Source: Bolinopsis microptera
Lineage: Eukaryota; Ctenophora; Tentaculata; Lobata; Bolinopsidae
Assembly: GCF_026151205.1 (NCBI RefSeq)
Contig: NC_087080.1
Coordinates: 3,389,096 to 3,453,095, forward strand
DNA length: 64,000 nucleotides
Reading direction: 5' to 3'
The position numbers and the translations under genes are program-made. Positions 2,343 through 58,471 of the stretch are shown one piece after another (the stretch's first letter is position 1; each line of letters starts with the position of its first letter). The notes under the pieces are model-generated. The model had not been told where the DNA came from. It made no database searches and worked only from the letters and a program-made list of their open reading frames with translations.

Positions 2343-3085
2343 TTACGTTTTTCTGTCCACTACTTAGTTACCCACCTTAACACTGTCCCGCTCCAAATCT
2401 TTAACAGTATCCCATCAAGTAACGGTGATACAAGACCACGGTCACCGTGTGTACAAGGTTAAATTGTTAAAATTCCTTAATATGGTGGGAGGCATCAAGC
2501 CGCATCATTGACACCCTCAACACGTGATGCCCATATAAAGAGTGCACTCAAAACATTCCAATGACCTCCCGCTCCTGGCCTTTAACCTTCCGGAATGATC
2601 TGTGACGTGTCAGCTTGTGTTAGCCGTTAAGGAGGCCTGGTTGTTCTCCCATTTGCTGTATATAAAACTATTAACATGTATTCTGGGCTAGCAAACGATT
2701 GACTGAGTACTGGTTTACTTGCTGTAATACATTATATAATATGATCGATAGCCTAATATTACTCGATATCTTATATTCTTCATCAAATTAAAAAAACCGC
2801 ACTATGTAATGAAACAACACATTCGCGTATGTAAGCTGTACTGTACATAAGCTCAACACTTGTTTCCCAAGCGTCACGTGGTACCCACGCTTCTTAAGAG
2901 TTGTTTTTAAAACAATAAGTACAACAGTTTGTCTGCTACTATGTGACACAGTCTCCATCCTGATGGTGTGATCTCATCGCCAACAATCCGAGGTCATGAT
3001 TAACGATCATACACTGGATGTTACCCAAATTTTAAATTGAGTGAGTCTTGATTCTTGTCACTATTTAAGAATGTTAGAATTCGCC
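2343..3085. other. non-coding stretch
   Basis: No open frame of interest, no repeat and no RNA gene is recognised in this interval. Confidence 0.45.
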
Positions 3086-3222
3086 GGTTACCGGACAACT
3101 GAACCCAATTTAGATAATTTACACTAACCCTAACTCTAACCCTAACTCTAACCCTAACCCTAACCAACTAAGCTGATTGGTTAGTGGAAACTAGGTTCAA
3201 TCGGGTTCAGTTGTCGGTCACC
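3086..3222. mobile_element. small inverted-repeat element carrying telomere-like repeats
   Basis: The ends form an imperfect terminal inverted repeat: GGTTACCGGACAACTGAACC at 3086-3105 pairs with the reverse complement of 3203-3222, with one mismatch and one indel. The interior at about 3123-3166 is a tract of CCCTAA units with CTCTAA variants. No target-site duplication is evident. It could be a MITE with a simple-repeat core. Confidence 0.6.
3123..3166 (+). repeat. interstitial telomere-like (CCCTAA)n tract
   Basis: About seven units of CCCTAA, with CTCTAA variants, read on the + strand (TTAGGG on the - strand). TTAGGG is the common metazoan telomere repeat. The tract is internal, short and impure, so it is not a chromosome end. 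Confidence 0.8.
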
Positions 3223-4040
3223 CACACCACCTTATATAACTAAATATTTGCCTACAAATTATGCATTGTCTTAAAACACATTACACAGTGTAATACACCC
3301 TGTAAAACCACACCCTTCCCAGTTGGAGACTCTTACTTACTTTGCTTATATTATCCTTTGTAAATACAACTCGTCTGTTCGCTCTCAAATTACACCGTTA
3401 TTTCATAGGAGCTTACATTGAACACAGGAACACACAGCCAATTAATGCGTATTTCACAAAATTACGCGACATTTATGCGGGAAGAATGCAACTGAGGATC
3501 CTGGTTTAGACCGGAACTGTGTGAAACATTTAGGGTATTTATATACTTTTGAATAAAATTAAATCCTGGTATGTATCCTCGTAGTGAGTCCTTACTCCTA
3601 GTGTTCCTAAAGGAAGACTCTCCGGATCTCAGCTTACATATTATGGAGCGTCACAGTGTTGACTTGTTGAGTGATCTTAACTAATAGTTAAGATTTAGTG
3701 TGTTAATTTAGTGTTATTTAGTGTTAATTTAGTGTTAATTTGGTGTTAATGTAGAGAGTATAAATTGCACCCGTACAAATGAGTTACTACCGATATGTAA
3801 ATATATTGAGGACTACAAACCGAGGGGACTTGAACTCGTTAGTAGACTGATGTTCTGTGTATTATACACAAAGTGTTTCTAATGTTCACCAGCGCAGGCT
3901 AGCGTGACACTTTCTCAGCTGAGAGTGTGTATTTAGTTGATACTTTCAGCAAAATAACTGTATATATATATGTAATACTAGAAGTACTAACCTGTAATGT
4001 GCACACAGTGTACGCCCTGTATAATATGGTATCATGATTT

Positions 4041-15306: not shown

Positions 15307-15437
15307 GGGGGGGGGGGGGGGTGCCAATGGCATAAATGGCATAATGGAGAATTGGCCAAACAAAATTTCCATTTATGCCATGAAATTTCTATGCCATTTG
15401 ATGAATTTTATGCCATTTTTCTCCATTCTATGCCATT
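15307..15437. mobile_element. ATGGCATAAATGG MITE, copy 3, with poly(G) end
   Basis: It starts with 15 G (15307-15321), then TGCCAATGGCATAAATGG, GGAGAATTGGCCAA, and ends TTCTCCATTCTATGCCATT at 15437. The right end lacks the GGTACCCC of the other copies and is probably truncated. Confidence 0.7.
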
Positions 15438-16140: not shown

Positions 16141-17912
16141 TGTAGGACTGTAGAGCGGGGGACTGTATGGCGTACTTGGTCAAAAGTAGGACCCTAGAGC
16201 GGAGTCAAATCGCCAGGGTAGGAATCTAGAGCGGAACCCCCTCACCGGAACCATACTATAAGGACCCTAGAGTGGAGTCAAATCGCCAGGATAGGACTCT
16301 AGAGCGGAACTCCCTTACCGAAACCATACTATGAGGACTCTAGAGCGGTACCCACATGTAAATTTTGGAGCGATTAGAAATTTGAGATCAGACTGTAGAG
16401 TGGACTTGGTCGGAAGATTGAAATCAGATTAGATACAACTCGTGATTGATTATTATAATAGTGAGATTAGAATAATTCATGGAGTTGTTGAAGCAGAAAA
16501 TTGTCCTAGATTATTTATATTATACATCATATCATATTGTAATTTTTAGATACGTTAGACAATTGTTCGGTATAAACTTCTTCCATTTGACTGAAATATC
16601 CTGATGCTACTCTAAAATGCAAAAAGATTCTTTGATAAAGAGGTATAATTATGAACTGGTCGATGTGATTTCGCTAAGCGAAATACCGACCAAGTACGTG
16701 CACTCAAGCAGATCATTTAGTGTGACACTTTAGCACCTACTAAGGGTATCTCATGTTCAGTCTAGTGACAGGGTATGTTCCAGATCAGATCCCATCGCAT
16801 AGCGGTTCTTGTTAGTGATTTCGATAGTGCAGTATAAATGTCACAGAGAATTTAGTTTAGTATATCACATTCGATTCCTACTCCTCTTTACAACTATCTA
16901 CAATATGCTGAGTAACAGTTATTACTTAACTCTTCCTGAGAAGGCCGTTTTCAGACTTCATCCGGGGACGAACAGCTGAGATGGGTACGGGAGAACGGAC
17001 TGAAGAAGGACTACAACGAAGGAATTAACGACCCCCTTACTAATTCCTGGACTTCAGGTCCTGTTCAAGTGTGGATACGTAGACTTATGCACTATGCAGC
17101 TTGCCTTTCTCCCAGTGGACGATGTTCTCCCTTCTTTCATGGAGCTCCTAGATCTTATACCCTCCCACCTTGGCCTCGACGACTTCCTTAACTACTTCAT
17201 GACGAATTGGGTACAGGGAGTTTCCACCGCTCGTAGCACCAAACCTGCCCGCTTTCCTCCGCAATCCTGGAACCTCGTCGACCGGACTACCTGCAACTTC
17301 AACTACGCAGAGGCCTTTAACAGAAAGTTTGCAGCAATGTTGGGACACTCTTACCCAACTATCTGGACCTTTCTTCAAGCTGTCTATATAGAACAGTCCA
17401 CTACAGATGAGATGATGCTCAAGGAGAGTTACGGGGATGCTCCTCCTGCAAAACGAGCCCGTCAGCGTACCAAGGACAGCCGACTGGCACATTTAGTAAA
17501 AGTCTACTACGATCATGACATTGTCTCACTCTCCCACCTTGACATGTTGAGGAACGTGATGGTCGAGGAACTGAGTGAACTATTTCAAGATATTTGATTC
17601 GCAGTATTAATGTATAATAAGTTGTATCAATTCTATCATCATTATGTGACGACTATTATTAATCATTGATTAAAAAACATAGCTCAATCTTCAAAACTAA
17701 CTTTACTCTCAAATTTCTAACCGCTCTAAAATTTGCATGTGGGTACCGCTCTAGAGTCTTCATAGTATGGGTCCGGTAAGGGAGTTCCGCTCTAGAATCC
17801 TACCTTGGCGATTTGACTCCGCTCTAGGGTCCTCATAGTATGGGTCCGTTAAGGGGGTTCCGCTCTAGAGTCCTACCCTGGCGATTCGACTCCGCTCTAG
17901 GGTCCTACTTTC
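16141..17912. mobile_element. MULE-type DNA transposon remnant with long composite inverted repeats
   Basis: Long inverted repeats of about 200 bp flank a transposase fragment. The left repeat (16183-16380) and right repeat (about 17700-17911) share words such as AAAGTAGGACCCTAGAGCGG, GGAGTCAAATCGCCAGG and ACCATACTATGAGGACTC. Each arm is itself internally duplicated, with several TAGGACTCTAGAGCGGA units. One extra unit lies just outside the left arm at 16141. Outer boundaries and target duplication could not be fixed. The MULE assignment rests on the encoded transposase piece. Confidence 0.8.
16960..17597 (+). pseudogene. MULE transposase C-terminal fragment
   Basis: The 167-residue frame from 17094 matches the C-terminal end I associate with MULE-type (FLYWCH-linked) transposases: a FLNYF..NWV block (31-40), SWNLVD, then NFNYAEAFNRKFAAMLGHSYPTIW-like wording (68-92), and a basic PPAKRARQRTK stretch at 117-127. 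Upstream, 16960-17090 in another frame still reads as the preceding part (EQLRWVRENGLKKDYN). The two are separated by an apparent 7-bp duplication ATGCACT/ATGCAG near 17088. The DDE catalytic core is absent, so the copy cannot transpose itself. Confidence 0.75.
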
Positions 17913-17946
17913 GAATTTGCTTTTCTTGAATAGTCAAATGTTTGAA

Positions 17947-18227
17947 TGTTTGGTATAATACATTTCTATTTTCTTTATTTGTCATATGAATCTTTAAAGA
18001 TCATTTCAAGCGTTATAAAGCATGAAACATGTCTCTTATTCAAGTACTAATAATATTTGCGAATTTAAAGTCATCCTAAAGGTCAAATATGAAGACCTAA
18101 ATTCATGGCATAAATTGGCATGAATGGAGAATTGGCCAAACAAAATTTCCATTTATGCCATGAAATTTCTATGCCATTTGATGAATTTTATGCCATTTTT
18201 CTCCATTCTATGCCATTGGTACCCCCC
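17947..18227. mobile_element. ATGGCATAAATGG element, copy 4, with shared flank
   Basis: It has the same ~155-bp lead and terminal block as 12726-12989, with ATGGCATAAATTGGCATGAATGG at its start and GGTACCCCCC (six C) at its end. The short C run here against 21-22 C in copies 1 and 2 shows that the homopolymer varies between copies. Confidence 0.75.
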
Positions 18228-23178: not shown

Positions 23179-23493
23179 ATGGCGCATAGTTTGGTTACCA
23201 TGGCGCATAGTTTGGTTACCATGGCGCATAGTTTGGCTACCATGGCGCATAGTTTGGTTACCATGGCGCATAGTTTGGTTACCATGGCGCATAGTTTGGT
23301 TACCATGGCGCATAGTTTGGTTACCATGGCGCATAGTTTGGTTACCATGGCGCATAGTTTGGTTACCATGGCGCATAGTTTGGTTACCATGGCGCATAGT
23401 TTGGTTACCATGGCGCATAGTTTGGTTACCATGGCGCATAGTTTGGTTACCATGGCGCATAGTTTGGTTACCATGGCGCATAGTTTGGTTACC
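23179..23493. repeat. 21-bp minisatellite ATGGCGCATAGTTTGGTTACC
   Basis: Fifteen near-perfect 21-bp units. Because the unit is a multiple of three and lacks stops, it opens long frames on both strands (MAHSLVT on +, HGNQTMR and MVTKLCA on -). These are by-products of the repeat, not supported proteins. One unit differs by a single base (GGCTACC). Confidence 0.95.
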
Positions 23494-23851
23494 ATTTCCC
23501 TCCCCCTTCAGTTCCCGATATTTCTTTTGGACTACCAAACCCCCTCCTAGGTAAAAGACTCTTAGTTTTCAAGACTTGTGGTCTGCTATGGGGTCTGCTA
23601 TCGATTATTTTACTTCTTCAAAGTTAGTCCAATTTTCATTACCTGGACTTCAGTGGATTCTTCTTTTGGTAATGTGCCTATTTCAAAGAGTTTTTGTAAG
23701 GTATTTACCTTCAAGTGGACTCAGTTACAATCAGTTATTTTCAGTTACAATCAGTTATTCTAGCATTTGCAACAATTTTAATTGCTCTCTTATCAGTTGT
23801 TTTATCTTTACATCGACACGCCAGCTACTCAGCTTGCCTTTGCTTTGTACA

Positions 23852-36067: not shown

Positions 36068-36077
36068 AATGCCCCCC

Positions 36078-36912
36078 GAGGGAGCTAGGGGTATGCGTAT
36101 CGAGGGAGCTAGGGGTATGCGTGTCGAGGGAGCTAGAGGTATGCGTGTCGAGGGAGCTAGGGGTATGCGTATCGAGGGAGCTAGGGGTATGCGTATCGAG
36201 GGAGCTAGGGGTATGCGTATCGAGGGAGCTAGGGGTATGCGTGTCGAGGGAGCTAGGGGTATGTGTGTCGAGGGAGCTAGGGGTATGCGTGTCGAGGGAC
36301 TTAGGGGTATGCGTGTCGAGGGATCTAGGGGTATGCGTGTCGAGGGAGATAGGGGTATGCGTGTCGAGGGAGCTAGGGATATGCGTGTGTAGGGAGCTAG
36401 GGGTATGCGTGTGTAGTGACTTAGTGAGCTAGGGGTATGCGTGTGTAGGGAGCTAGGGGTATGCGTGTCGAGGGAGCTAGGGGTATGCGTGTCGAGGGAG
36501 CTAGGGGTATGCGTATCGAGGGAGCTAGGGGTATACTTATCGAGGGAGCTAGGGGTATGCGTATCGAGGGAGCTAGGGGTATACGTATCGAGGGAGCTAG
36601 GGGTATGCGTGTGTAGGGAGCTAGGGGTATACGTATCGAGGGAGCTAGGGGTATGCGTGTCGAGGGAGCTAGGGGTATACGTATCGAGGGAGCTAGGGGT
36701 ATGCGTGTCGAGGGAGCTAAGGGTATGCGTGTCGAGGGAGCTAGGGGTATGCGTGTCGAGGGAGCTAGGGGTATGCGTGACGAGGGAGCTAGGATATGCG
36801 TGTCGAGGGAGCTAGAGGTATGCGTGTCGAGGGAGCTAGGGGTATGCGTGTCGCGGGAGCTAGGGGTATGCGTGTGTAGGGAGCTAGGGGTATATGCGTG
36901 TCGAGGGAGCTT
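36078..36912. repeat. 24-bp G-rich minisatellite
   Basis: About 35 units of a 24-bp repeat (CGAGGGAGCTAGGGGTATGC followed by GTGT/GTAT). The unit is a multiple of three and opens long frames reading GARGMRVE or SRELGVCV; I treat these as repeat artefacts. Sub-variants (GTGTAGGGAGC, ATACGTATCG) are interspersed, which suggests repeated internal exchange. Confidence 0.95.
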
Positions 36913-47512: not shown

Positions 47513-48248
47513 GGTAGTTCGAGTGGGTACCGCTGTCGGTAGGGCGCCGGGCAGCGGCATCTGGTGCCCGACCAGCACCCTACCGGCACCAGACCGGCAC
47601 CCAACCGGCACCCTACTGGCAACCTACTGGCACTCTACTGGCACCCTACCGGAACCCGACCGGCACCCGACCGGCACCCTACTGGCACCCTACCGGCACC
47701 CTACTGGCACCCTACTGGCACCCTACCGGCACTCTACCGGCACCCTACAGGCACTCTACTGGCACCCTACTGGCACCCTACTGGCACCCTACCGGCACCC
47801 TACTGGCACCCTAATGGCACCCTACCGGCACCCAACCGGCACCCTACTGGCACCCTACTGGCAACCTACTGGCACCCTACTGGCACCCGACCGGCACCCT
47901 ACTGGCACCCTACTGGCACCCTACCGGCACCCAACCGGCACCCTACTGGCAACCTACTGGCAACCTACTGGCACCCTACTGGCACCCGACCGGCACCCTA
48001 CTGGCACCCTACTGGCACCCTACCGGCACCCTACTGGCACCCTACTGGCACCCTACCGGCACCCTTCTGGCACCCTACTGGCACCCTACCGGCACCATAC
48101 TGGCACCCTACTAGCACCCTACCGGCACCCTACTGGCACCCTACCGGCACCCTAGACTGACACCCTACCGGCACCCTTCTGGCACCCTACCGGCACCCGA
48201 CCGGCGTCCGACCAGCGTCCTAACGACAGCGGTATCCGCTCGAACTAG
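47513..48248. mobile_element. TIR element whose interior is a 12-bp minisatellite
   Basis: The ends are inverted repeats: TAGTTCGAGTGGGTACCGCT plus GTCGGTAG at 47515, and CTAACGACAGCGGTATCCGC plus TCGAACTA ending 48247, with about four mismatches in 28. A perfect 9-bp duplication, TTCAGTTTG, lies at 47504-47512 and 48249-48257. Nearly all of the interior is a 12-bp tandem array. The TIR plus a 9-bp target duplication suggest a MULE-like MITE in which a short interior motif expanded. Confidence 0.8.
47560..48210. repeat. 12-bp minisatellite CTACTGGCACCC
   Basis: About 54 units of CTAC(C/T)GGCACCC with CGAC and CAAC variants. The unit is a multiple of three, so long frames (PTGT, LLAPYRHP-type) appear in two phases; these are not supported as genes. 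The C/T alternation gives blocks that recur with longer periods. Confidence 0.95.
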
Positions 48249-49552: not shown

Positions 49553-50077
49553 AACAGGTTGCTAAGCGGCTAACAGGTTGCTGAGCGGCTAACAGGTTCC
49601 TAAGCGGCTAACAGGTTGCTAAGTGGCTAACAGGTTGCTAAGCGGCTAACAGGTTGCTAAGCGGCTAACAGGTTGCTAAGCGACTAATAGGTTGCTAAGC
49701 GGCTAACAGGTTGCTAAGCGGCTAACAGGTTGCTAAGTGGCTAACAGGTTGCTAAGCGGCTAACAGGTTGCTAAGCGGCTAACAGGTTGCTAAGCGGCTA
49801 ACAGGTTGCTAAGCGGCTAACAGGTTGCTAAGCGGCTAACAGGTTGCTAAGTGGCTAACAGGTTGCTAAGCGGCTAACAGGTTGCTAAGCGGCTAACAGG
49901 TTGCTAAGCGGCTAACAGGTTGCTAAGTGGCTAACAGGTTGCTAAGCGGCTAACAGGTTGCTAAGCGGCTAACAGGTTGCTAAGCGGCTAACAGGTTGCT
50001 AAGTGGCTAACAGGTTGCTAAGCGGCTAACAGGTTGCTAAGCGACTAACAGGTTGCTAAGCGGCTAACAGGTTGCTA
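49553..50077. repeat. 19-bp minisatellite AACAGGTTGCTAAGCGGCT
   Basis: About 27 units of a 19-bp repeat with a GCGG/GTGG/GCGA variant position. The spacing of GTGG variants is partly regular, about four to five units apart, hinting at a higher-order period. Flanking words GCCGGTATGGTTGTG and CTACAACCGG are loosely inverse, which may be the vestige of a host element. Confidence 0.95.
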
Positions 50078-53293: not shown

Positions 53294-54217
53294 ACCAAAG
53301 TAACTTGGATACTAATGGGGAGGCCGTGAGTCACGTTTAATTGACAGACAGCCATTAACAAATTAGCTCCCAGTAAACCAAACAAATCCCCGGTTCTCTT
53401 TCCGTGTCACAATAAATATGGCTTAAAGTTATCGTCAATCTCTAGAAACAACTCAATTGCTTACTTATGCTATTCAGTTTACTAAGGTATGTATTTTGGA
53501 ACCAGTTCCCCACTACTACCAGTCCCATTATTATCCATCTCTATTTGCTGTTGTGATGGAGTGAATTTGTAGAGAAAACTTTGACAGAATAAAGCGCCTG
53601 AAACTGGGAACAGTAAGGAAGTAAATGGCAAAATTTGCCATTATGTTGAGCATCGGGAGATACCACGCCACTCTGTTAAAATCAGCAGATATGAGCTCGG
53701 GATGGTGTTGACTTGATTGAAACTGAATATGGTACATTAGAAAAGCAGAATACGGTTGAAGTAATGACCACTGTGGGAATACCTCGCATACGTAATTCAC
53801 CAGGTGACCGTTTGGCAGCGTTTGGTAGCGTTTCTTCCATGGTCGGGATGTTTGTTAGGATCACAATAACGCAAGGGAGTAGAGTATTCATTACAGCATG
53901 ATCAAACGAGTAAAACCAATAGCCTACTTTCTCTTTGTATGTAATCGGATTATTTTGGCAATCGTAGAAGTTCATGTCTTTGACAAGGTTCAAGTTATCA
54001 CCCTCCAACACCCAAAATGTTAACGGCACCCAGATCCACACCAGCCATAATGCTGCACAAAAGCCGTGTGCCACTTCCTTTTTTCAGTATTTAAGACTTC
54101 AGAGGAAATTGCAAGATCGTTTATAATTTAGTGGCCGACAATGCACTCACAAGATGCAAACTAACACTAAAATATAATACGTCAAATAATATCTCAGTTC
54201 AGTCGCTGTACCGGATG

Positions 54218-56867
54218 GACTGAGCACCCACTGATCCCACCCTGCTATCATATTCACACTAGTCTCCGGTAGCACCCACTGATCCCACCCTACTATCATA
54301 TTCACACTAGTCTCCGGTAGCACCCACTGATCCCACCCTGCTATCATATTCACACTAGACTCCGGTAGCACCCACTGATCCCACCCTGCTATCATATTCA
54401 CACTAGTCTCCGGTAGCACACACTGATCCCACCCTGCTATCATATTCACACTAGTCTCCGGTAGCACCCACTGATCCCACCCTGCTATCATATTCACACT
54501 AGTCTCCGGTAGCACCCACTGATCCCACCCTGCTATCATATTCAAAGTCTCCGGTAGCACCCACTGATCCCACCCTGCTATCATATTCACACTAGTCTCC
54601 GGTAGTACCCACTGATTCCACACTGCTATCATATTCACAGTCTCCGGTAGCACCCACTGATCCCACCCTGCTATCATATTCACAGTCTCCGGTAGCACCC
54701 ACTGATCCCACCCTACTATCATATTCACAGTCTCCGGTAGCACCCACTGATCCCACCCTGCTATCATATTCACAGTCTCCGGTAGCACCCACTGATCCCA
54801 CCCTGCTATCATATTCACACTAGTCTCCGGTAGCACCCACTGATCCCACCCTGCTATCATATTCACAGTCTCCGGTAGCACCCACTGATTCCACCCTGCT
54901 ATCATATTCACACTAGTCTCCGGTAGCACCCACCGATTCCACCCTGCCATTATATTCAAAGTCTCCGGTAGCACCCACTGATCCCACCCTGCTATCATAT
55001 TCACAGTCTCCGGTAGCACCCACTGATCCCACCCTGCTATCATATTCACACTAGTCTCCGGTAGCACCCACTGATCCCACCCTGCTATCATATTCACACT
55101 AGACTCCGGTAGCACCCACTGATCCCACCCTGCTATCATATTCACACTAGTCTCCGGTAGCACACACTGATCCCACCCTGCTATCATATTCACACTAGTC
55201 TCCGGTAGCACCCACTGATCCCACCCTGCTATCATATTCACAGTCTCCGGTAGCACCCACTGATCCCACCCTGCTTTCATATTCAAAGTCTCCGGTAACA
55301 CCCACTGATCCCACCCTGCTATCATATTCACACTAGTCTCCGGTAGTACCCACTGATTCCACCCTGCTATCATATTCACAGTCTCCGGTAGCACCCACTG
55401 ATCCCACCCTGCTATCATATTCACAGTCTCCGGTAGCACCCACTGATCCCACCCTGCTATCATATTCACAGTCTCCGGTAGCACCCACTGATCCCACCCT
55501 GCTATCATATTCACAGTCTCCGGTAGCACCCACTGATCCCACCCTGCTATCATATTCACAGTCTCCGGTAGCACCCACTGATCCCACCCTGCTATCATAT
55601 TCACACTAGTCTCCGGTAGCACCCACTGATCCCACCCTGCTATCATATTCACAGTCTCCGGTAGCACCCACTGATTCCACCCTGCTATCATATTCACACT
55701 AGTCTCCGGTAGCACCCACTGATCCCACCCTGCTATCATATTTACAGTCTCCGGTAGCACCCACTGATCCCACCCTGCCATCATATTCAAAGTCTTCGGT
55801 AGCACCCACTGATCCCACCCTGCTATCATATTCACACTAGTCTCCGGTAGCACCCACAAATCCCACCCTGCTATCATATTCACAGTCTCCGGTAGCACCC
55901 ACTGATCCCACCCAGCTATCATATTCACAGTCTCCGGTAGCACCCACTGATTTCACCCTGCTATCATGATCATATTCACACTAGTCTCCGGTAGCACCCT
56001 CTGATCCCACCCTGCTATCATATTCACAGTCTCCGGTAGCACCCACTGATCCCACCCTGCTATCATATTCACAGTCTCCGGTAGCACCCACTGATCCCAC
56101 CCTGCTATCATATTCACAGTAGTCTCCGGTAGCACCCACTGATTCCACCCTGCCATCATATTCAAAGTCTCCGGTAGCACCCACTGATCCCACCCTGTTA
56201 TCATATTCACACTAGTCTCCGGTAGCACCCACTGATTCCACCCTGCCATCATATTCAAAGTCTCCGGTAGCACCCACTGATCCCACCCTGCTATCATATT
56301 CACAGTCTCCGGTAGCACCCACTGATCCCACCCTGCCATCATATTCACAGTCTCCGGTAGCACCCACTGATCCCACCCTGCTATCATATTCACAGTCTCC
56401 GGTAGCACCCACTGATCCCACCCTGCTATCATATTCACAGTCTCCGGTAGCACCCACTGATTCCACCCTGCTACCATATTCACACTAGTCTCCGGTAGCA
56501 CCCACTGATCCCACCCTGCTATCATATTCACAGTCTCCGGTAGCACCCACTGATCCCACCCTGCTTTCATATTCACACTAGTCTCCGGTAGCACCCACTG
56601 ATTCCACCCTGCCATCATATTCAAAGTCTCCGGTAGCACCCACTGATCCCACCCTGCTATCATATTCACAGTCTCCGGTAGCACCCACTGATCCCACCCT
56701 GCTATCATATCCACAGTCTCCGGTAGCACCCACTGATCCCACCCTGCTATCATATTCACAGTCTCCGGTAGCACCCACTGATCCCACCCTGCTATCATAT
56801 TCACAGTCTCCAGTAGCACCCACTGATCCCAACCTGCTATCATATTCACAGTCTCCGGTAGCACCCA
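54218..56867 (-). repeat. 45/48-bp minisatellite derived from GPCR extracellular loop 1
   Basis: Roughly 57 units of 45 bp (GTCTCCGGTAGCACCCACTG and following) or 48 bp (with an added CTA). Read on the minus strand, the unit encodes VLPETVNMIAGWDQW or VLPETSVNMIAGWDQW. The first unit continues directly from the receptor's TM2 end (LALSLSW) and the last runs into its TM3 (WVLSPSG...TYY), so the unit is the loop between TM2 and TM3. Both lengths are multiples of three and the frame stays open for 303 and then 598 codons. A distinctive variant order recurs about 744 bp apart. Confidence 0.9.
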
Positions 56868-56998
56868 GGCCCCAGCTCAAAGACAACGCCAAGTCATTGA
56901 CAGCCATGTGTTGGATAACCGCGATTATGAGCTTGTTAAGTCTGAAGGAATTGTCAGTCATGGTGGCAATCAGAATGATAGTACATATCTCCAAGGAG

Positions 56999-57147
56999 CA
57001 GGGACAAAAGGAAATCGGGGCATGTGCAGGATCGCGATTTTTCCCATTATTTGCGACAAATTTTATGTATAGTTTAATGTATAGTCTGTTAAAAATCGCG
57101 GTATCGCGAATTTTGGCCAAAATAATCGCGATCTCCTTTTGTCCCTG
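56999..57147. mobile_element. hAT-type MITE inserted in TM1 of the GPCR
   Basis: This 149-bp element has terminal inverted repeats CAGGGACAAAAGGAAATCG (left) and the reverse complement of CGATCTCCTTTTGTCCCTG (right), one mismatch in 19. The interior is full of TCGCGAT words. It is flanked by the perfect 8-bp duplication CCAAGGAG (56991-56998 and 57148-57155). CAGGG-type ends and an 8-bp duplication are hAT hallmarks. Removing the element and one duplication rejoins the receptor's TM1 coding sequence. Confidence 0.9.
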
Positions 57148-57259
57148 CCAAGGAGAGTTGAGAGAACGACTATAACATTGTATCCGATCAGGAAAGAAGT
57201 TTCCACACCACAATTGGTCGCATGTTTGCGTTTGTGTCAGAAGCATTGGTAGGTTCCAT

Positions 57260-57815: not shown

Positions 57816-57821
57816 AAACCA

Positions 57822-58471
57822 CATACTCCAGATGCAACACTCTTCTTTACTCATTCCCCTATCTCTCTACTCTACCGGCTGCCTCTGACATACTCCAGAT
57901 GCAACACTGTTCTTTACTTCTTCCCCTATATCTACTCTACTGGCTGCCTCTGACATACTCCAGATGCAACACTCTTCTTTACTCCTTCCCCTATCTCTAC
58001 TCTACCGGCTGCCTCTGACATACTCCAGATGCAACACTCTTCTTTACTCCTTCCCCTATCTCTACTCTACTGGCTGCCTCTGACATACTCCAGATGCAAC
58101 ACTCTTCTTTACTCCTTCCCCTATCTCTACTCTACTGGCTGCCTCTGAAATACTCCAGATGCAACACTGTTCTTTACTCCTTCCCCTACCTCTACTCTAC
58201 CAGCTGCCTCTGACATACTCCAGATGCAACACTGTTCTTTACTTCTTCTCCTATATCTACTCTACTGGCTGCCTCTGACATACTCCAGATGCAACACTGT
58301 TCTTTACTTCTTCTCCTATATCTACTCTACCGGCTGCCTCTGACATACTCCAGATGCAACACTGTTCTTTACTTCTTCTCCTATATCTACTCTACTGGCT
58401 GCCTCTGACATACTCCAGATGCAACACTGTTCTTTACTTCTTCCCCTATATCTACTCTACCGGCTGCCTCT
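57822..58471. repeat. 65-bp minisatellite
   Basis: About ten tandem units of a 65-bp repeat starting GACATACTCCAGATGCAACA and ending CTGGCTGCCTCT. The period is confirmed by successive TACTCC starts at 57891, 57956 and 58021. Variants at TTCC/TTCT and CCGG/CTGG recur in alternation. Confidence 0.95.

Follow-up and report, generated by a model that had tools for sequence, protein, structure and literature searches.

A minisatellite apparently derived from the TM2-top and ECL1 segment of a class A-like receptor pseudogene in the ctenophore Bolinopsis microptera

The stretch of DNA analyzed here, a 64-kb window of Bolinopsis microptera (C9:3389096-3453095 of the 264.65-Mb assembly that was searched), carries on its minus strand a receptor gene interrupted by a long tandem array. 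TRF run on the window places the array at 54223-56867, with 57.2 copies of a 45-bp period and 92% matches. When split at the word TGGGTGCT, it resolves into 57 full head-to-tail units on the minus strand (54231-56867), followed at the array end by an 8-bp partial unit (54223-54230, minus strand) with the same letters as the 8 bp that open the first unit. The unit consensus is TGGGTGCTACCGGAGACT[AGT]GTGAATATGATAGCAGGGTGGGATCAG, coding WVLPET[S]VNMIAGWDQ, and the unit as translated from the minus strand reads WVLPETVNMIAGWDQ. The 57 units comprise 27 distinct sequences. An earlier note on this DNA had given unit sizes of 45 and 48 bp, both multiples of three. The length of every unit (57 of 57) is indeed a multiple of three, with 35 units of 45 bp and 21 of 48 bp, to which a single unit of 54 bp must be added. 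The 48-bp type corresponds to the 45-bp type with an extra AGT. In the following, L labels designate receptor loci of the same genome (29 loci) and P labels homologous proteins (56). Because the closest relatives L002, P0001, P0002 and P0003 read P-x-T-V-N, we regard the 45-bp type as the older of the two. The 54-bp unit, unit 20 (55947-56000, minus strand), is an NMIMIAG variant that holds the only in-frame stop of the array, a TGA at 55953-55955. The frame, previously described as open for hundreds of codons, does include an open stretch of 601 aa, but is not free of stops. As a side observation, the length of NMIMIAG equals that of NMISMAG in relatives. Unit 20 could possibly be a relic of this longer ancestral form, although a local 6-bp duplication with one additional change is the simpler explanation. 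Minisatellite units range from about 10 to 100 bp. With 57 head-to-tail units of 45-54 bp spread over 2.6 kb, the array is a minisatellite, and array lengths of 0.5 kb to several kb are given for this class in PMC2820488.

The receptor gene around the array is a pseudogene, with frameshifts, stops and a transposon insert. Homology to receptors extends over TM1-TM2 upstream of the array, down to 56878, and over TM3-TM7 downstream of it, from 54222 to about 53570, all features lying on the minus strand. The start codon candidate (57259), the N-terminus and the first part of TM1 occupy 57156-57259, with a frameshift near 57207-57211 in the L002 and P0001 alignments. TM1 is then interrupted by a MITE-like insert of 149 bp (56999-57147) with inverted ends CAGGGACAAAAGGA / TCCTTTTGTCCCTG, flanked by the first (57148-57155) and second (56991-56998) copies of the 8-bp target-site duplication CTCCTTGG. 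A further frameshift is found next to this element, the alignment insert of 161 nt being 4 nt longer than element plus duplication. Duplications of 8 bp and CAGGG ends are typical of hAT-type elements. A genome search with this element gave 1002 first-look candidates; besides the insert itself, the 40 that were scored include 39 copies of full or nearly full length that are 94–95% identical to it, and a 41st row of the search is a partial match. The end of TM1, ICL1 and TM2 (TIILIATMTDNSFRLNKLIIAVIQHMAVNDLALSL) are recognizable at 56878-56990 by frame-aware alignment to L002, P0001, P0002 and P0003. Seven extra nucleotides, AGCTGGG (56871-56877, placed from the P0002 and P0003 alignments), follow between TM2 and the first unit and shift the frame. 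P0002, P0007, P0008 and P0011 run straight through this join as CLAW(V/I)LP. Beyond the array, the alignments place the end of ECL1, TM3 and ICL2 at 54084-54222, a remnant damaged by a frameshift between 54166 and 54188, a TAA at 54121-54123, a frameshift near 54093-54099 and a TGA at 54084-54086. TM4 to TM6 remain as a 133-aa open stretch (53682-54083; alignments and genome match), and TM7 with the C-tail is found at 53531-53710, past a frameshift that the alignment locates between 53711 and 53723. The frame before TM4 was also considered as a DRY region, a reading that was rejected because the frame-aware alignments put the receptor in another frame.

L002 is a paralogue with an open frame of 359 aa, located on C9 like the window and 2.5 Mb away from it. 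In a search of the whole genome with the TM4-TM6 piece, L002 (41%, E 5.8e-25) is outscored by the window only, and the match below it reaches 32% (E 9.1e-11). P0003, searched against the own genome, also finds the L002 gene as best match (53%, next 41%), and the pieces of the window are absent from the 113 rows of that search (cut-off 1e-25). Another homologue search with the TM4-TM6 piece yielded no homologue, with only a single candidate. A frame-aware alignment of the minus strand from 57330 to 53520 with five homologues recovers the receptor parts in order around the array. Four homologues begin to align in TM1 or at the N-terminus and continue to TM7, and P0005 (246 aa, starting inside ECL1) aligns from ECL1 onward; identical codons amount to 160 of 305 aligned for L002, 153/294 for P0001, 151/284 for P0002, 142/292 for P0003 and 113/233 for P0005. 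By these alignments, the array flanks are the two sides of one decayed class A-like receptor gene.

The relationship with class A receptors is detected with a profile (A1) built from L002 and 32 of the 56 homologues. This profile matches 429 distinct PDB sequences with E <= 0.001 (the best 60 being shown), the best match being the kappa-opioid receptor (9.2e-16, positions 20-295 of 325). Pfam 7tm_1 is recognized in L007 (45.1 bits), and a search of L002 gave no 7tm_1 match. In class A GPCRs, TM3 ends with the motif DRY and TM7 contains NPxxY. Both are missing from the family consensus, which has TTxKLxxLKxP and SNFYIY in their place, and the family is therefore called class A-like, a divergent branch. 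A tree of 26 rows, comprising the pseudogene, 18 of the 56 homologous proteins and 7 of the 29 paralogue loci, places the pseudogene within a set of 12 rows (99/99) and, with less certainty (82/92), within an 8-row set together with L002, P0001, P0004, P0002, P0005, P0003 and P0012, at an open fork. No other row of this 8-row subclade has an end branch as long as that of the pseudogene (0.61). Two loci of the family have repeats of their own: arrays beginning about 80 bp upstream of the start codon candidate are present at L002 (L002:2375-2529 and 2699-3277), and L023 is a receptor with a DYA repeat (DDYADYADYADY...) ahead of the first helix.

Sequence comparison confirms that the receptor itself is the source of the repeat unit: its TM2-top and ECL1 segment has been reiterated about 57 times in tandem within the gene. 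The same segment is present in single copy and at the same position in L002, where the frame is open, and in homologues from other sources (WLLPVTVNMISMAGWDYWIL against WVLPETVNMIAGWDQWVL). Across it the L002 protein reads ...DLAISFVWLLPVTVNMISMAGWDYWILNPSSLASVLRY..., and the window translates as ...DLALSL[7 nt](A)WVLPETVNMIAGWDQ(WVLPET...)nWVLSPSGTATELRY.... Alignment of the doubled unit with ten receptors gave scores of 41-74. For nine of them (L002, L007, L016, P0001, P0002, P0003, P0006, P0008 and P0022) the unit matches at TM2-ECL1 and only 0 to 4 of 2000 shuffles were as good; for P0005, which starts within the segment, 29 of 2000 shuffled units were as good. The WVLPET frame scores 72-81 against four proteins, the other five frames 13-31. 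A chance resemblance of the unit to ECL1 was rejected on the basis of these shuffles and reading frames. At the DNA level, the unit is identical to L002 at 35 of 45 positions when two L002 codons are left out, and the mismatches are distributed as 3, 1 and 6 over codon positions 1, 2 and 3, a pattern expected of a stretch that had coded for protein before being copied.

In the profile alignment, the last W of the unit is paired with the W of the kappa-opioid receptor stretch NSWPFGDVLC, and WVLP with the preceding residues, positions which we take to be ECL1 and the outer end of TM2. This placement indicates that the unit represents the top of TM2 plus ECL1, slightly more than the loop alone, and its mapping to TM2-ECL1 is in this sense an assignment by alignment. 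Class A receptors have a tryptophan in ECL1, at the end of the TM2-ECL1 segment; the segment studied here also ends on such a tryptophan, and W90 of the family is nearly invariant. The earlier note had proposed that the unit grew from a GPCR's own loop in about 57 copies, which is borne out by the L002 and homologue alignments and by the 57 units counted. The accompanying prediction that the ECL1 of intact relatives should resemble the unit also holds, at the same position, in L002 and the homologues. Two details need correction: besides ECL1, the top of TM2 is part of the unit, and the array, although flanked by TM1-TM2 and TM3-TM7 homology as described, does not join TM2 without a gap, since the 7 extra nucleotides put this join out of frame.

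The array appears to be confined to this locus. All 55 genome matches of a 27-base core of the unit (3 mismatches or fewer) lie within the array, against 0 for the reversed control, and the 25 matches of a 93-base DNA query, in a genome search that skips very common words, likewise all fall in it. A satellite dispersed in the genome, which would have spoken against the earlier note, is rejected on these 55 core and 25 DNA matches. The same data bear on the idea that an unrelated satellite, resembling ECL1 by chance, was inserted in the gene. Minisatellites are abundant in this region (they occupy 9 places in the window, one of which is the TM2-ECL1 array), and an insertion is conceivable on that ground, but such an origin is extremely improbable: the unit resembles the loop precisely where the array sits and does so in a single frame, the alignments leave no second, free-standing copy of the segment next to the array, and the unit matches nowhere else in the genome.

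To what extent the array was shaped by coding constraint can be judged from the differences between units, scored against the unit consensus with the change in the extra AGT codon omitted and unit 20 taken without its extra 6 bp. The 24 distinct base changes fall 10, 6 and 8 times on codon positions 1, 2 and 3 (8.0 expected for the third), and 5 of them are synonymous, versus 5.6 expected when the same changes are placed randomly. Two changes would singly give a stop (2.4 expected), one of which co-occurs with a second change so that no stop results. Of the 135 single-base changes that the unit can undergo, only 6 create a stop. Since the changes are neutral in pattern and so few of them lead to a stop, the open frame of the array needs no selection and may be explained by the copying of stop-free units. 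Selection for the open frame was rejected, given the 5 synonymous changes of 24 against 5.6 expected. The array has most likely diversified without coding constraint. The earlier note had considered expansion while the gene was still translated or chance copying of stop-free units, and the evidence leans to the latter. A short earlier life in a working gene, with few copies, may nevertheless have occurred. The rare variants S, U and V, found at units 34, 38 and 39 and again at units 50, 54 and 55, a spacing of 16 units, show that a block of several units was recopied.

The possibility that expansion began in an expressed receptor deserves consideration. The array would then have been an in-frame VNTR adding 15–16 residues per copy to TM2/ECL1, as the DRD4 VNTR does in ICL3, and the gene would have died later. 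The multiple-of-three lengths of all 57 units are in line with this, as is the frame of the array, which continues on the 3′ side through WVLSPSGTATELRY, as far as LRY. However, the unit lengths weigh little because only two independent length changes are seen. Moreover, the 24 distinct changes bear no trace of constraint, each added unit would put another TM2 end between TM2 and TM3, and 7 extra nt throw the 5′ side out of frame. We regard this scenario as unlikely, even though the sequence as such does not fix the order of expansion and gene death. The DRD4 VNTR sits in a working receptor. For the human gene, PMC3164202 describes an exon 3 VNTR of 48-bp units, located in ICL3 and present in 2 to 11 copies. 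An open receptor frame, as a functional coding VNTR of the DRD4 type would have, was not found at the Bolinopsis locus, which contains frameshifts, stops and the MITE insert. Judged on this, the Bolinopsis array is not a functional coding VNTR. The two systems are alike in having a 48-bp tandem unit in class A GPCR coding sequence; they differ in that the Bolinopsis array lies in TM2-ECL1 rather than ICL3, has 57 copies rather than 2 to 11, and resides in a dead gene instead of a working one.

The 601-aa open stretch also raises the question whether the array is translated as a new repetitive protein, secreted or of beta-roll type. Pfam reports a likeness to an ice-binding beta roll (E 2.3e-5, 24.8 bits, below the cut-off of 30) and another to Imm45 (18.1 bits, cut-off 25). 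Tandem repeats often yield weak Pfam matches of this kind. No homologue was found at E <= 10 among 8000 candidates scored, the array contains an in-frame stop, and the unit changes are free of constraint. This reading was rejected, on the missing homologues and on Pfam matches under the cut-off, and is very improbable.

How the array was born may be read from its boundaries. At the array start, ...GGGGCC leads into the first unit, which opens with TGGGTGCTACC; behind the last unit the sequence continues as TGGGTGCTCAGTCC. The same short word, TGGGTGCT, is thus found at the array start and right after the last full unit, as expected for birth from a direct repeat. The match is exact over 8 bp, without further extension on the left, and, under equal base use, the probability that 8 bp agree at a given place is 1.5e-5. 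The word codes for the receptor's own W-V-L, which is present at both ends of the segment. W-(V/I/L)-L is found at both segment ends in P0002 (WVLP...WVLK), P0001 (WVLP...WILN) and L002 (WLLP...WILN), and a W-x-L pair occurs also in P0008, so that the protein motif could have supplied the direct repeat. The first W is missing in P0003 (SVLP...WILN) and in most of the remoter family. In L002 the boundary words are TGGCTATTA and TGGATTCTA in DNA, similar but non-identical. Because they differ, and because the identical pair is seen in no single-copy gene, the identity of the 8-bp words is a feature we infer for the ancestor.

Slippage or recombination between short direct repeats is a standing model of minisatellite origin according to PMC2820488, which cites Taylor and Breden 2000 among the sources for it. 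The birth of the Bolinopsis array probably used the 8-bp direct repeat TGGGTGCT by this known route. An ancestral class A-like GPCR gene would have carried W-(V/I/L)-L at the TM2 top and in ECL1, encoded by similar words about 45–51 bp apart. Slippage or unequal repair between two TGGGTGCT words would then have duplicated the intervening segment, an event suggested by the array structure, the boundary word and the single copy in relatives. Unequal exchange and conversion could subsequently have enlarged the array to 57 units, with a 3-bp insertion giving the 48-bp unit type and a multi-unit block being recopied. Growth most likely took place when coding constraint was already weak or gone, as the neutral pattern of changes suggests. 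We give a probability of about 85% to the whole of this reading, i.e. birth from a short direct repeat in a receptor gene, growth once coding constraint was weak or gone, and a neutral minisatellite whose product has no function. As in the short-direct-repeat minisatellites covered by PMC2820488, the array has the form (R X)n R, the word R, here 8 bp long, standing at both ends of the founding segment. It differs from them in that its founding segment is a conserved receptor segment and that R stems from the repeated W-V-L of the protein itself.

A second receptor of the same family, L015, also has an array that starts in coding sequence (L015:2107-3330 and L060, C11:1308086-1310002). Its open frame of 355 aa ends ...PVVTRTRPGKLDKET*, and its C-terminal codons (VVTRTRPGKLDKET) are the first unit of a 43-bp array with 43 detected copies. 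The first step of this array, 55 bp, brings a TAG stop into frame, and the remainder lies after the stop codon. All 20 genome matches of its unit fall at the L015 locus. The L015 array thus resembles the TM2-ECL1 array in that its first unit comes from receptor coding sequence and that it occupies one locus, whereas its receptor frame is open and its 43-bp unit is not a multiple of three. Arrays with periods of 10 bp or more and 5 or more copies were detected at 9 places (12 rows) in the window, the TM2-ECL1 array included, and at 8 places (14 rows) in the 29 receptor-like loci (96,945 bases). As arrays are this common in the regions scanned, one lying within a gene is expected now and then. 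In our view the two cases reflect minisatellites born more than once, and by chance, in receptor genes and surviving where the gene is dead or where the tail is hit, as in L015; we claim no excess. Among the other repeats of the window, a minisatellite of 10 copies of 65 bp (57821-58471) lies about 560 bp upstream of the start codon candidate of the pseudogene, and further minisatellites are located at 36077-36911 (24 bp), 47575-48198 (11 bp), 49553-50077 (19 bp) and 23179-23495 (21 bp). Inverted arms of 208 nt, 92% complementary and with two 73-bp tandem units in each, are present at 16180-16387 and 17707-17914. They are flanked by a perfect direct repeat of 95 nt (15343-15437 and 18123-18217), which gives this structure the look of a mobile element.

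In the open-licence literature, judged by titles and abstract beginnings, we found no GPCR-derived or pseudogene-born minisatellite and no work on ctenophore minisatellites, although general work on repeat origin exists. To our knowledge, the founding segment is not known for many minisatellites. In the present case one can see the unit, the position where it was founded, relatives with a single copy and the likely founding word, which allows the short-direct-repeat model to be checked base by base. In a broader and decidedly speculative interpretation, minisatellites would arise repeatedly from receptor coding sequence, this receptor branch would be predisposed to them because W-(V/I/L)-L at both TM2-ECL1 ends of several receptors constitutes a ready-made direct repeat, and the TM2-ECL1 array may have passed through a translated stage with a duplicated TM2 end and ECL1. 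A constrained protein motif, in this case W-V-L occurring twice 15–17 residues apart, can seed a repeat expansion, and the second receptor case in the same genome, L015, makes this a testable pattern rather than a lone curiosity.
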